Source of the DNA: a virus
IMG/VR virus record: IMGVR_UViG_3300036845_000328
Span: 1 to 40,767 of that record
Length of the DNA: 40,767 bases
Direction: 5' to 3' (one strand)
The translations under genes were made by a program, and so were the position numbers. Below are positions 18,363 to 34,343 of the stretch, piece by piece. How positions within the stretch are numbered: position 1 is the first letter of the stretch; every line of letters begins with the position of its first letter. The notes beneath the pieces are model-generated. The model was not told the DNA's origin, made no database searches, and worked only from the letters and a program-made list of their open reading frames with translations.

Positions 18363-18575
18363 CTAGTCCAGGCTTTCGCGGGTGTTGGCGACGATGCAGC
18401 GCGACACGCGCAGCGCCTCGGCCATGCGCTGCTTCTCCGGCAGCCGGCGCAGTTCGAGCGACAGCTGGTAGCTGAGCATGGTGATGGCGTCCTCGACGAA
18501 CGCGAGGCCGCCGTCCTTGACCGCCTCATACACGCGGCGCGCGGCTTCCTGACCTTGCGGGTGTGTCGGCGTCAT
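18363..18575 (-). CDS. Small helical protein of 70 residues
   Basis: The protein is mostly alpha-helical and charged: QEAARRVYEAVKDGGLAFVE followed by LSYQLSLELRRLPEKQRMAE. Its ATG overlaps the preceding membrane-protein stop (ATGA). There is no recognised family or motif. Its place next to a two-helix membrane protein gives no firm hint of function. Confidence 0.68.
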   Translation of the reverse strand: MTPTHPQGQEAARRVYEAVKDGGLAFVEDAITMLSYQLSLELRRLPEKQRMAEALRVSRCIVANTRESLD

Positions 18576-18760
18576 CGCAGCAGCGGCGGCTCGTGGACCA
18601 GCGGCAGCAGGTAGCTGAGCAGCACCAGCAGCAGGATCAGCGCGAGCACGATCTGTGCGATCAGCGCGAACGGCGGCGGCAACGGGATCAGGGTCACGAT
18701 GTAGTACAGCAGGCCGAACACCAGCAGGACGACGAGCAGCGTGATAAGCAGCGAGATCAT
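18572..18760 (-). CDS. Thivi_2564-like two-helix membrane protein
   Basis: The 62-residue product is almost entirely hydrophobic. MISLLITLLVVLLVFGLLYY and a second helix around FALIAQIVLALILLLVLLSY are separated by a Pro-rich turn (LIPLPPP). This is the layout of the small Thivi_2564 membrane protein family found in proteobacteria and their phages. Its role is not known. A holin-like function is possible by topology, but it is far from the lysis-type cassette and so remains a guess. Confidence 0.78.
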   Translation of the reverse strand: MISLLITLLVVLLVFGLLYYIVTLIPLPPPFALIAQIVLALILLLVLLSYLLPLVHEPPLLR

Positions 18761-27195: not shown

Positions 27196-27260
27196 TTACG
27201 GCAACGGTAATGTCATCGGCGGATGCGTGGCTCTGGCATGGTGAGGCAGTACCGGCACGG

Positions 27261-27461
27261 CTACGCCGCCTCGGCGGATGCGCGGAACAGATCGGGGCGC
27301 AGCAACTCGCGCGGAATACCGGTGATGCGCTCGATCTCGACGATGCGTTCAGCAGGCACTTGCTGCCACTTCACGACCGATGCCCTGGTCAATCCCAGGC
27401 CGTGAGCGACCTTGGCTTGCAAGCCGCGTTGAGCGCGGATCAGGTCCATTCCGTTAGCCAT
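27261..27461 (-). CDS. cro: Cro-like regulator (YdaS/Cro family)
   Basis: The protein has 66 residues. MDLIRAQRGLQAKVAHGLGL followed by RASVVKWQQVPAERIVEIER is the short helix-turn-helix fold of the YdaS/Cro group, and GIPRELLRPDLF is the characteristic end. It is transcribed divergently from the cI-like gene, with a 17-bp dyad just upstream of its start. It is expected to repress cI-type promoters and favour lytic growth. Confidence 0.85.
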   Translation of the reverse strand: MANGMDLIRAQRGLQAKVAHGLGLTRASVVKWQQVPAERIVEIERITGIPRELLRPDLFRASAEAA

Positions 27462-27468
27462 CCCGACC

Positions 27469-27485
27469 GCTTACCACAAGGAAGC
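27469..27485. promoter_or_regulatory. Operator O1 (17-bp dyad) upstream of cro
   Basis: GCTTACCACAAGGAAGC has arms GCTT/AAGC and matches the reverse complement of the site at 28040 in 16 of 17 positions. It lies seven bases from the cro start codon and directly downstream, on the cro strand, of TATGCC, a possible -10 box. An additional outer symmetry CCGCTT/AAGCGG (27467-27487) extends it. A CI/Cro-type dimer is the expected ligand. Confidence 0.72.
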
Positions 27486-27566
27486 GGCATAGGCAACCCG
27501 CTTGAGAACAAGACCGGGCCGAAGTGCTTCCCCCCAGACTATCTATTCCGTGGCAGCGTGCCGCCC

Positions 27567-27959
27567 ATGGCAATCGGCGACCGGATTCGGCGCGCGAGAC
27601 TGGCGGTCGGCCTTTCGCAACGCGAACTGGCAGCGGCCGTAGGCGTCACGCACGGCATTGTCGGGCAATGGGAAAGTCACCGGAAAAGCCCCGGCCGAGA
27701 GAACGTGCGCAAGATTGCTGCGGTGACGCTGGTGGATCCGGGTTCGCTATTGCAGGATGTCGGCACTCAAAGTGAGGCCGGCGTGCTAGTGACAGACCTC
27801 AGGCAGATAGCTCTGCTGCGCCGGTTCGCCCTCATCTCCACGCGGCAACAAGAGAACCTCCTCGAACTCCTCGGCGTGGCTAAGGATGTCCGGCGCGAGC
27901 TCGAGGAGAAACGCCATCCAGCGAAGGCGCGGCACCCGAGCCCCGCTGCCACACAATGA
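27567..27959 (+). CDS. CI-like repressor, short form
   Basis: The protein has 130 residues from ATG 27567. Residues 2-60 are an XRE helix-turn-helix: IGDRIRRARLAVGLSQRELA, then AVGVTHGIVGQWESHRKSPG. The C-terminal half is helical (LLRRFALISTRQQENLLELL) and lacks the S24 LexA-type self-cleavage domain, so RecA-triggered autoproteolysis is not expected. It diverges from cro. No clear ribosome site is present, as in the leaderless lambda cI transcript. Confidence 0.83.
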   Translation: MAIGDRIRRARLAVGLSQRELAAAVGVTHGIVGQWESHRKSPGRENVRKIAAVTLVDPGSLLQDVGTQSEAGVLVTDLRQIALLRRFALISTRQQENLLELLGVAKDVRRELEEKRHPAKARHPSPAATQ

Positions 27960-32261: not shown

Positions 32262-32546
32262 TTAGTCGGAGCTGCCATAATCCTTGCCGCTCAAGCTGGG
32301 CAGCGGCGGCAGCGTGGTCTTGCCGGCCCGCTCGATCGGCAACGCTGTTTCCCTGTGGGCCGCCTGCTGCGGCGCCACCGGCCGCGCCATGCTGCGCGGC
32401 AGCCGGAGCGCGCGGGCCTTGCTGATGATGGCCTTGGCGGTGCGGCCGATGCGGGCGCCGATCTGCGGCGAGGTGTAGCCCTGCTCGCGCATCTCGATCA
32501 GGATCCGCACCTCGTCCCTGGGCCACTCGTCGTTCACGCTACGCAT
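32262..32546 (-). CDS. Short GcrA-like DNA-binding protein
   Basis: The protein has 94 residues. Residues 6-50 (NDEWPRDEVRILIEMREQGY, then TSPQIGARIGRTAKAIISKA) match the GcrA N-terminal helix-turn-helix. The C-terminus is Pro/Ala-rich and lacks the Cys/His sigma-binding end present in the longer phage copy. An AAGGAG site precedes ATG. It is the last gene of the lysis-type cassette. It might compete with host or phage GcrA at promoters, which is inference. Confidence 0.78.
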   Translation of the reverse strand: MRSVNDEWPRDEVRILIEMREQGYTSPQIGARIGRTAKAIISKARALRLPRSMARPVAPQQAAHRETALPIERAGKTTLPPLPSLSGKDYGSSD

Positions 32547-32547
32547 G

Positions 32548-32736
32548 TCACTCCTTCGGTGGCCCCGACCGCGAGGCCGCCAGCAGCGCCAGGATGCCGG
32601 TCAGCAGCTCGCCGAACACCTCGCGCAGCATCCCGCTCATCTGCTGGCAGGCACCGAGCGGCTCGCGCCCCTGGATCGCGACAATCCAGGTACAGCCGGT
32701 GAGTGCCACCAGCGTCTCCAGCATGATGAGCAGCAC
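32548..32736 (-). CDS. Small membrane protein, holin-like by context
   Basis: From GTG 32736 the product has 62 residues with a hydrophobic helix MLLIMLETLVALTGCTWIVA and a second hydrophobic stretch near ELLTGILALLAAS. The open frame continues upstream with more hydrophobic residues (FCAYLFGIVV) but has no ATG, GTG or TTG before the previous stop. CTG 32787, eight bases after AGGG, is a possible rare start. Position beside a cell-wall peptidase suggests a holin. Confidence 0.55.
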   Translation of the reverse strand: MLLIMLETLVALTGCTWIVAIQGREPLGACQQMSGMLREVFGELLTGILALLAASRSGPPKE

Positions 32737-32788
32737 AACGATGCCGAACAGGTAGGCGCAGAACCGGAGGACGTTGAACGGGCGCAGT

Positions 32789-33340
32789 TCATGCCCTGCG
32801 GAGCAGCGCCACCAGCCCCACCAGCCCGGTGCCCAGCAGCGCCAGCGAGGCCGGCTCGGGCACGGCAGTGCCCTGGGCGGTCGCCGAGAACGAGCCGCTG
32901 GCGATGCCCGTCGCCTGATTGACCGTCAGCTCGATAGTCCCGGCCGTCGGCGCGAACCCGGTCAAGGTCAACAGCGCATCGTCGTTCAGGCTCAGATCGC
33001 CGCCCACGATCGTCGGCGGATCCACCTGGCTGGTGAGGCTGACGGTCGCGGTGATGCTATTGTTCATGGCGACAAACAAGTTGGCCAGGTTGGTGAACGG
33101 CGAGAATTCCAGCGGCGTGTTGACCACGACGCAGCCGACACAGGTGCCGAGCGTGGTATAGGCACCGGTGCCGGTCACCAGGTTGGCCGGCGACGAGAAC
33201 AGCACGTCGACGCCGTTGAAGGTCGCATTGCCGACGACGTTCAGCGTATCACCAGCACCGATACTCGGGGCGGCGTGCGCACCGGGCGCGAAGATGATGC
33301 ACAGCGCGGTCAGCGCCGTGCCGGCGAGAAGTCGGGTCAT
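32789..33340 (-). CDS. Secreted PEP-CTERM domain protein
   Basis: The protein has 183 residues with a signal peptide (MTRLLAGTALTALCIIFAPG, cleavage near AHA-AP). The mature part is Thr/Val/Gly-rich beta structure with a TCVGCVV pair. The C-terminus is VPEPASLALLGTGLVGLVAL plus Arg-Arg-Ala: the Pro-Glu-Pro motif (161-163), a single membrane helix and a basic end define PEP-CTERM proteins. In bacteria these are sorted by exosortase to the envelope or exopolysaccharide. A phage copy inside the lysis-type cassette is unusual. The ribosome site is AGGAG. Confidence 0.9.
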   Translation of the reverse strand: MTRLLAGTALTALCIIFAPGAHAAPSIGAGDTLNVVGNATFNGVDVLFSSPANLVTGTGAYTTLGTCVGCVVVNTPLEFSPFTNLANLFVAMNNSITATVSLTSQVDPPTIVGGDLSLNDDALLTLTGFAPTAGTIELTVNQATGIASGSFSATAQGTAVPEPASLALLGTGLVGLVALLRRA

Positions 33341-33343
33341 GGT

Positions 33344-33718
33344 TCAGGTCTCCTCGAGTTCGATTGCGTGGAAGGAATCGCCGTTATTGACCGGGTCGCC
33401 GGTGTTGCCGCGGAACCGGATCGTGCGCTGATGCACCGGCTGACCAAGCCACTGGTCCCAGACCAGCAGCCCCTGCTCGGTCTCGGCGATCAGCACCGCG
33501 GCGTGTGCGGTGCCGTCGGTGCGGTTGGTGTAGCGGCCCTCGTGGTCGAAGGTGGCGATCAGCGTGCCCGGCGCGAGATCGCCCCCACGCGCCGGGACGC
33601 CGCGGCGCCAGCGGGAAGTCGGGGGCAGCCCCCCGACCTCCCTCAGCAGCGCCACACAATGCCCGTCACCCACGACCTTGCCGTGGTAGCGCGCGGGCAT
33701 GTCGGCACGATGCGGCAT
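33344..33718 (-). CDS. BPSL0067-like cell-wall peptidase, candidate endolysin
   Basis: The protein has 124 residues. GHCVALL (Cys21), SRWRRG, GTLIATF, HAAVLI (His72) and VWDQW follow the BPSL0067 family in order. The family has the Cys-His arrangement of NlpC/P60-type amidases and peptidases. No signal peptide is visible, so access to the wall would need a holin. It is the best lysis-enzyme candidate besides the two glucosaminidase-like domains. Its gene is sandwiched between the Pro/Gly-rich protein and the PEP-CTERM gene. Confidence 0.8.
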   Translation of the reverse strand: MPHRADMPARYHGKVVGDGHCVALLREVGGLPPTSRWRRGVPARGGDLAPGTLIATFDHEGRYTNRTDGTAHAAVLIAETEQGLLVWDQWLGQPVHQRTIRFRGNTGDPVNNGDSFHAIELEET

Positions 33719-33720
33719 GG

Positions 33721-34242
33721 CTATCCGCGACGCGGCTCGGGCTGTCCACCCGGATCGATCGGATTCGCAACTCCCGGCTGGTCACCGGGCAGCGAGTTAT
33801 CCGGCCGCAGCCACGAACCCGGTGGGATTACGATGGGGTGGCTGGGCTCGCCACCGGGCGCCATCGGCGGCATGACGGAACCACCGCCGGGCAGGAAAAT
33901 CGGCGGCGTAGGCATCGGCACGTTGCCGCCGCCCCAGATCCCCGGCGGTTGGCCTGGCAGCCCTTGATCCGGTCGACCGGGCGGCGGCCACACACCGGGC
34001 GGATAGACCGGGCCGCCTCCGACCCCAGGCGGCGGCCCACCCGGCGAGATCGGATGGGCAGGGTAGCCCGGTCCTGGCCAGACGCCTGGCGGATAGTAGC
34101 CGCCGCCCCCGCCACCCCACGTCGGCGGCGTCGGGCTCGGCAGCGTGGGCAAGTATGGCGGATAGAAAATCGGCGGCATCACTGCGGGTGGCGGCGGACC
34201 GACATTGATCGGCTCGACGACCACCAGATACGTTTGAGGCAT
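33721..34242 (-). CDS. Proline/glycine-rich low-complexity protein
   Basis: The protein has 173 residues from ATG 34242, with AAAGGA nine bases upstream; an earlier ATG at 34275 lacks one. After MPQTYLVVVEPINVG it is nearly all Pro, Gly, Trp and Tyr, with repeated PPG(V/I)W and GGG(N/P) units (YPPGVWPGPG, YPPGVWPPPG, QPPGIWGGG). Such proteins are probably extended and could be a virion surface or cell-envelope component. No family function is known. Confidence 0.74.
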   Translation of the reverse strand: MPQTYLVVVEPINVGPPPPAVMPPIFYPPYLPTLPSPTPPTWGGGGGGYYPPGVWPGPGYPAHPISPGGPPPGVGGGPVYPPGVWPPPGRPDQGLPGQPPGIWGGGNVPMPTPPIFLPGGGSVMPPMAPGGEPSHPIVIPPGSWLRPDNSLPGDQPGVANPIDPGGQPEPRRG

Positions 34243-34343
34243 GAGTTGTGTTCCTTTGGCTGGTGCGATTGCCATCGTTGGAGACGGGACGCCGGGGCGA
34301 TGGCGAACGCCGGCGGTGGTGCGATTCCGTAATGCTCGCGGTG

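Follow-up and report, generated by a model that had tools for sequence, protein, structure and literature searches.

The window, by which we mean the whole 40,767-nucleotide stretch of viral DNA analysed here, carries a gene for a secreted protein with a PEP-CTERM sorting tail. We think it fairly likely that the phage carries it as a moron-like accessory whose product is a substrate of the host exosortase and feeds the surface or exopolysaccharide route. The enzyme concerned is most likely exosortase A. The original prediction had proposed a phage-borne substrate of the exosortase type, and the gene indeed proved to be maintained in related phages and not to be contamination.

The PEP-CTERM protein and its genomic setting

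The window comes from IMG/VR as a virus record; it is a P22-like podovirus, and its two ends carry a 144-bp direct repeat with one mismatch. Its gene products include the coat and portal, both of P22 type, as well as the large terminase, a head closure protein and proteins for DNA ejection. An ejection protein used as a search query returned no match. Next to the terminase lies a gene for a 62-aa two-helix protein (18572-18760), and similar small proteins (cluster c18) occur in several phages with PEP-CTERM proteins. The late genes occupy the minus strand and run across the ends of the record. They end, in order, with genes for a Pro-rich protein, a peptidase, the PEP-CTERM protein, a small membrane protein and an HTH protein (Table 1).

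Table 1. Genes at the end of the late region of the window, and parts of the PEP-CTERM protein
Feature	Position	Strand	Basis
Pro-rich protein (HPIVIPPG / PDQGLPG type), upstream of peptidase	33721..34275	minus	likeness by eye, low-complexity
Tae2-like (BPSL0067 family) cysteine peptidase	33344..33718	minus	NF033857, 70.8 bits (cut-off 27)
PEP-CTERM protein gene, 183 aa, family C	32789..33340	minus	PF07589, TIGR02595, phage homologs, dN/dS
Signal peptide, residues 1-23, signal peptidase I-type site AHA/AP	33272..33340	minus	hydropathy, family C comparison
Mature β-rich body, about residues 24-158, no K/R/H, two Cys (CVGC)	32867..33271	minus	AlphaFold2, composition
PEP-CTERM tail AVPEPASLALLGTGLVGLVALLRRA, residues 159-183: PEP motif, membrane helix, basic end	32792..32866	minus	profiles, AlphaFold2, hydropathy
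Small hydrophobic (holin-like) protein, 79 aa if CTG start	32548..32787	minus	likeness to L003 4711-4989, hydropathy
GcrA/HTH-like regulator	32262..32546	minus	PF07750 below cut-off, phrog_323 E=5e-8

What identifies the product as a PEP-CTERM protein? Its tail scored above the cut-offs of both PF07589 (Pfam; 26.8 bits against 20.7) and TIGR02595 (NCBIfam; 22.2 bits against 16), and contains the expected PEP motif, membrane helix and basic end. By hydropathy, residues 4-22 and 162-180 are the two most hydrophobic segments. The N-terminus, MTRLLAGTALTALCIIFAPGAHA followed by APS across the putative AxA-type site, resembles a signal peptide, and no membrane helix separates it from the tail. The AlphaFold2 model, which is of moderate confidence (mean pLDDT 69; body blocks mostly 66-89), has about 10 β strands within residues 31-153 and a C-terminal helix at residues 165-182. 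Hence, hydropathy, the structural model and the two profile cut-offs bear out the signal peptide, β-rich body and full tail that had been read from the sequence at the outset. The neighbours had also been placed correctly, with the peptidase gene upstream and the small hydrophobic protein downstream.

The 136-residue body contains no K, R or H at all; in 636 windows, each 134 residues long, taken from this phage's other called proteins, such residues numbered 2 at the lowest and 12 at the median. A low-basic bias is common to phage families A, B and C of PEP-CTERM proteins, which have 0-6 basic residues per body. The window protein is not a member of the named PEP-CTERM families: as a whole it scored 40.4 bits against the PepA model NF033554 (cut-off 80) and 32.7 bits against THxN (NF038125; cut-off 85), and other named families scored lower. 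For its C-terminal third, PepA was the best-scoring named model. A fold search with the AlphaFold2 model gave no PDB or viral match below E=0.001, and we took the best viral fold matches, to herpesvirus UL4 (E about 0.01), as chance β-sheet similarity. As to function, the fold offers no clue.

By profile, the neighbouring peptidase matched Tae2, a type VI amidase effector of solved structure (PDB 6win; E=5e-18), and the Cys21 and His72 of the peptidase are invariant in five phage homologs. Because it falls in NF033857 and its solved relative is Tae2, we predict that this peptidase is most likely the endolysin. Tae2-family phage peptidases probably stand in the endolysin's place in the window (33344-33718), L002 (6511-6882), L003 (4336-4695), L113 and L116. 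The small membrane protein probably starts at CTG 32787, not GTG 32736, because it resembles a similar small membrane protein encoded immediately after the peptidase in L003 (4711-4989) and because an AGGG site lies 6 nt upstream of the CTG; a start at the GTG would truncate its first membrane helix.

Two of these neighbours recur elsewhere. Homologs of the GcrA/HTH-like regulator directly follow the PEP-CTERM gene in L188 and L189, and cluster c2, found about 0.9-2.1 kb behind many family A genes, was counted with this recurring regulator. A Pro-rich protein of the same kind precedes the peptidase or the PEP-CTERM gene in L116, L003, L188 and many family A phages. Pro-rich proteins with HPIVIPPG, PDQGLPG and VDPGYG repeats recur in cluster c3 (L058-L132). 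Promoter and terminator scans gave no match supporting any expression timing of the PEP-CTERM gene.

Conservation and recurrence in phages

Homologs 74-78% identical to the window protein are encoded by six other viral contigs (G003, L184 and L186-L189), and more distant ones were found as well. L184, L186-L189 and the distant relatives came from an alignment search of IMG/VR; a single-sequence search of IMG/VR with the window protein returned no match, so that single-sequence negatives are weak. In the nearest phage, G003 (portal 92%; PEP-CTERM homolog 77% identical), comparison of the PEP-CTERM gene with that of the window gave a dN/dS of 0.25. The L064-L092 pair gave 0.21. By region, omega was 0.20 for the family C body and 0.35 for the tail. 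We conclude that the gene is under purifying selection in phages. Between the window and G003, identity was 30% in the signal region and 81% in the body. The signal peptides of family C phage proteins diverge in their letters, yet all begin with basic residues followed by a hydrophobic segment, and most have an AxA-type site before the mature part; the tail, too, retains its character. In some relatives the PEP motif is changed (to VAEP, ASEP or APEP) and may escape cutting. In a tree, 6 of the 7 phage proteins clustered apart from bacterial ones (86/93 support), with L110 branching separately. The gene had been said to be open to dismissal as contamination or recent accidental capture if it were absent from related phages and identical to a host gene; the six viral homologs and the separate phage cluster contradict this.

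It had also been suggested that related phages be searched for the same gene at the same position. The gene was there, but its position varied. It sits after the coat gene in L184 and L186, between the Pro-rich gene and the HTH gene in L188 (portal 62% identical), and at the end of the late operon in G003, where the peptidase is absent. In L110 it lies inside the structural genes on the opposite strand to them; late expression is thus not universal. These varied positions speak for a late gene that is movable and less for a factor in lysis, a pattern of an accessory gene moving within late regions. Directly after the PEP-CTERM gene of G003 is a gene for a 71-aa protein (L057 2021-2236) whose LLWGC resembles a lipobox; this protein might serve as the outer-membrane partner of a spanin.

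The combination of signal and tail extends beyond this family. We searched IMG/VR for DNA of VPEP[AS]xLALLG, a strict pattern that favours canonical tails, and obtained 75 contigs with a PEP-CTERM tail. In all 75 the tail was in frame near the C-terminus, with 22-35 residues from motif to stop. Once signal and tail had been removed, the bodies formed the clusters A (46 contigs, fragments included), B (9 contigs) and C, besides singletons, most contigs falling in A, B or C. Comparison of the three bodies by hhalign, with profiles of 4-8 sequences, gave probabilities of 0.4, 0.2 and 0.2%, which is no detectable homology; we therefore rejected the idea that all PEP-CTERM bodies belong to a single phage family. 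Neither the 50,697 deposited phage records nor PHROGs gave a match to A, B or C.

A terminase, portal or coat cluster lay within 6 kb of 27 of the 46 A, 3 of the 9 B and 4 of the 7 C members, and one terminase cluster (c15) was downstream of members of A (L116), B (L087, L109, L122) and C (L092, L117). The Tae2-like peptidase shares an operon with A members (L113, L116) and with the C member of the window. Genes in the related contigs were called with a simple GC-position script, and the E-values of the locus searches refer to the candidate stretches only.

Several A phages have a PEP-CTERM gene and a one-TM gene that overlap at stop and start. Cluster c1, near the PEP-CTERM gene in 27 contigs, comprises one-helix proteins of 65-75 aa (e.g., L113 4402-4611 and L061 6008-6232) whose gene often overlaps the PEP-CTERM gene. 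Four phages (L092, L106, L112, L117) encode two PEP-CTERM proteins. PEP-CTERM genes of such pairs lie at L092 3259-3798 and L112 4404-5108, and the tail motif of the second C paralog is VAEP. Phage G006 encodes a 131-aa Pro-rich protein (L055 1168-1563) with a PEP-CTERM-like tail, AVAEPSSLAVLALGVAVLAMVRR, and no clear signal peptide; its gene is flanked by a GcrA-like HTH gene and a RusA-like gene.

Bacterial relatives and the exosortase

PEP-CTERM tails are known to accompany EpsH/exosortase and exopolysaccharide genes (Haft 2006, PMC1569441). We found that one bacterial genome, G407, has a family C relative directly behind its exosortase A gene (TIGR03109, 288.5 bits, cut-off 208), in a cluster that also encodes the deacetylase of the XrtA system (407 bits, cut-off 276), together with an ATPase from the associated family that scored below its cut-off (292 bits against 324.5). 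Hence, at least one bacterial member of the phage body's family lives with the sorting enzyme, and the tie to exopolysaccharide systems drawn in the original prediction is strengthened by this XrtA/exopolysaccharide cluster.

Family C homologs were found in 21 of 397 genomes of an Acetobacteraceae sample, versus 2 of 385 genomes of the class sample; an earlier scan of genome contigs with family C had given nothing, although the later genome search gave these relatives. We take the bacterial family of the samples to be Acetobacteraceae from the membership of Roseococcus and Sabulicella. An exosortase was present in 75 of 200 Acetobacteraceae genomes; the homolog-bearing G146, G234 and G407 have one. 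Family A has its relatives on the chromosomes of Roseococcus and Sabulicella, as multi-copy genes whose products bear a VPAPA tail, and each of the two genomes has one exosortase. In L139-L148, from the same two genera, the family A relatives often adjoin other secreted proteins.

We assume that the window phage's own host has an exosortase. With the window portal, matches within the Acetobacteraceae sample reached only 34-43%; among deposited phages, the best portals came from a Pseudomonas phage and an Acetobacter phage.

The window protein shares with substrates of exosortase A (XrtA, EpsH) the signal peptide, a body free of further membrane helices and the sequence of PEP motif, helix and basic end, as well as a body homolog in an XrtA cluster. 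Unlike bacterial substrates, it is phage-encoded, in operons with coat, lysis or packaging genes; the bacterial genes mostly form operons of their own, each preceded by a long intergenic region in which a sigma-54-linked site is probable. It has the same sorting tail as the flocculation-associated PepA (NF033554; PMC9850573), which, unlike the window protein, functions in the host floc and not in a phage. Floc formation involves PEP-CTERM proteins, and PepA overproduction moves exopolysaccharide from the soluble to the bound state (PMC9850573).

What the phage might gain

How would such a protein act? It would be made together with the late genes, exported by Sec and relieved of its signal peptide; its C-terminal helix would hold it in the inner membrane with the PEP motif at the periplasmic face, as in the model of PMC1569441. 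The host exosortase would then recognise it and hand it on to the surface or exopolysaccharide layer, where a β protein without basic residues would become a phage-made component of the infected cell's surface. Alternatively, it would compete with host PEP-CTERM proteins for the exosortase. Late production would alter the layer through which phages adsorb and leave. Given the tag here and on unrelated proteins of dozens of other uncultured phages, these phages probably change the surface of infected cells.

Tentatively, the benefit could be an altered exopolysaccharide or surface layer to which further phages adsorb less well, or which keeps released progeny from adsorbing to debris. We favour adsorption interference because of the analogy with phage surface lipoproteins: like T5 Llp (PMC9586334) and Ltp (PMC3952083), the window protein is the secreted product of a small accessory phage gene and would be expected on the host surface. 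Unlike these superinfection-exclusion lipoproteins, it is sorted by a PEP-CTERM tail and not a lipobox, and any receptor block is putative. We put adsorption interference ahead of a decoy function, and also ahead of lysis or lysogenic conversion.

The same idea might hold more widely, although we consider this rather doubtful: in phages of exosortase-bearing hosts, probably Acetobacteraceae, a constant PEP-CTERM tail would plug unrelated β proteins into the exopolysaccharide route and so exclude other phages. If so, surface-modifying phage proteins of this sort would form a class whose defining feature is the sorting tail and not the body, and the outer layer of the infected cell would be rebuilt with phage-encoded matrix proteins. 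The open-licence PMC papers searched describe no phage exosortase substrate. Exosortase systems are widespread, and substrates with a tested function are few; if our reading of the window gene holds, phages would provide compact natural test substrates for the pathway. Viruses would then also tap their hosts' exopolysaccharide sorting route, a point of relevance to the phage resistance of flocs and biofilms.

Perhaps the protein is instead a decoy, an abundant late product that saturates the host exosortase, so that host PEP-CTERM matrix proteins go unsorted, the exopolysaccharide matrix becomes looser and progeny get out more readily? One body can be exchanged for another as long as signal and tail are kept, the place of the gene immediately after the coat gene in L184 and L186 points to high output, and the phages with two PEP-CTERM proteins are in keeping with the idea. 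However, the family C body is under purifying selection, for which a pure decoy tail would have no need. Moreover, overproduced PepA bound more exopolysaccharide, not less (PMC9850573). We regard the decoy as unlikely.

Improbable in our view is a role as a lysis factor, in which the protein would cooperate with the small membrane protein and the Tae2-like peptidase, for instance in a spanin-like manner, bridging or disturbing the envelope. In the window, the PEP-CTERM start codon follows the peptidase stop by 3 nt, with a strong GAGGAG ribosome site upstream; L113 and L116 show overlaps of about 4 nt between their peptidase, one-TM and PEP-CTERM genes; and no spanin was recognised. Unimolecular spanins, such as T1 gp11, have an exported N-terminus, a β-rich periplasmic part and a C-terminal inner-membrane helix, and are encoded near the endolysin gene. 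The window protein has all of these features, including the C-terminal helix expected in the inner membrane. It differs from them in having no N-terminal lipobox: no family C phage protein has a Cys at +1 of the cleavage site, and hence there would be no outer-membrane anchor. Its relatives, too, are often encoded away from lysis genes. In L002 and L003 no PEP-CTERM gene separates the genes of the peptidase and the membrane protein, and no peptidase adjoins the PEP-CTERM gene in G003, L184 or L186. The 'lysis-type cassette' of the original prediction therefore stands as an operon with the Tae2-like peptidase in the window and in L113 and L116, where the body is another one, but not as a general setting, being absent from L184, L186, L188, G003 and L110. 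These other gene positions weaken lysis as a general role.

No less improbable is lysogenic conversion, in which the gene would be expressed from a prophage and alter the lysogen's surface. A tyrosine integrase was found in 5 of 30 PEP-CTERM-bearing viral records, the gene of L110 lies on the opposite strand as in a classical moron, and the window has a gene with an XRE-type HTH domain (27210-27959; PF01381, 41.5 bits), which possibly encodes a repressor although no integrase was found. Against this, the window gene lies inside a late operon. No tyrosine integrase (PF00589) was detected in the window or in 24 other records, some of them fragments, and no serine integrase (PF00239) in six records tested. 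The window matched neither of these two integrase profiles, and action in lysogens, as once suggested, is unsupported for this phage.

A passive passenger gene or host assembly contamination is hardly credible: the body has relatives in bacterial chromosomes, but contamination is very unlikely given the terminal repeats of the window, the homologs in six viral contigs at several positions, the omega of 0.25 and the clustering of phage copies, L110 excepted, apart from the bacterial ones.
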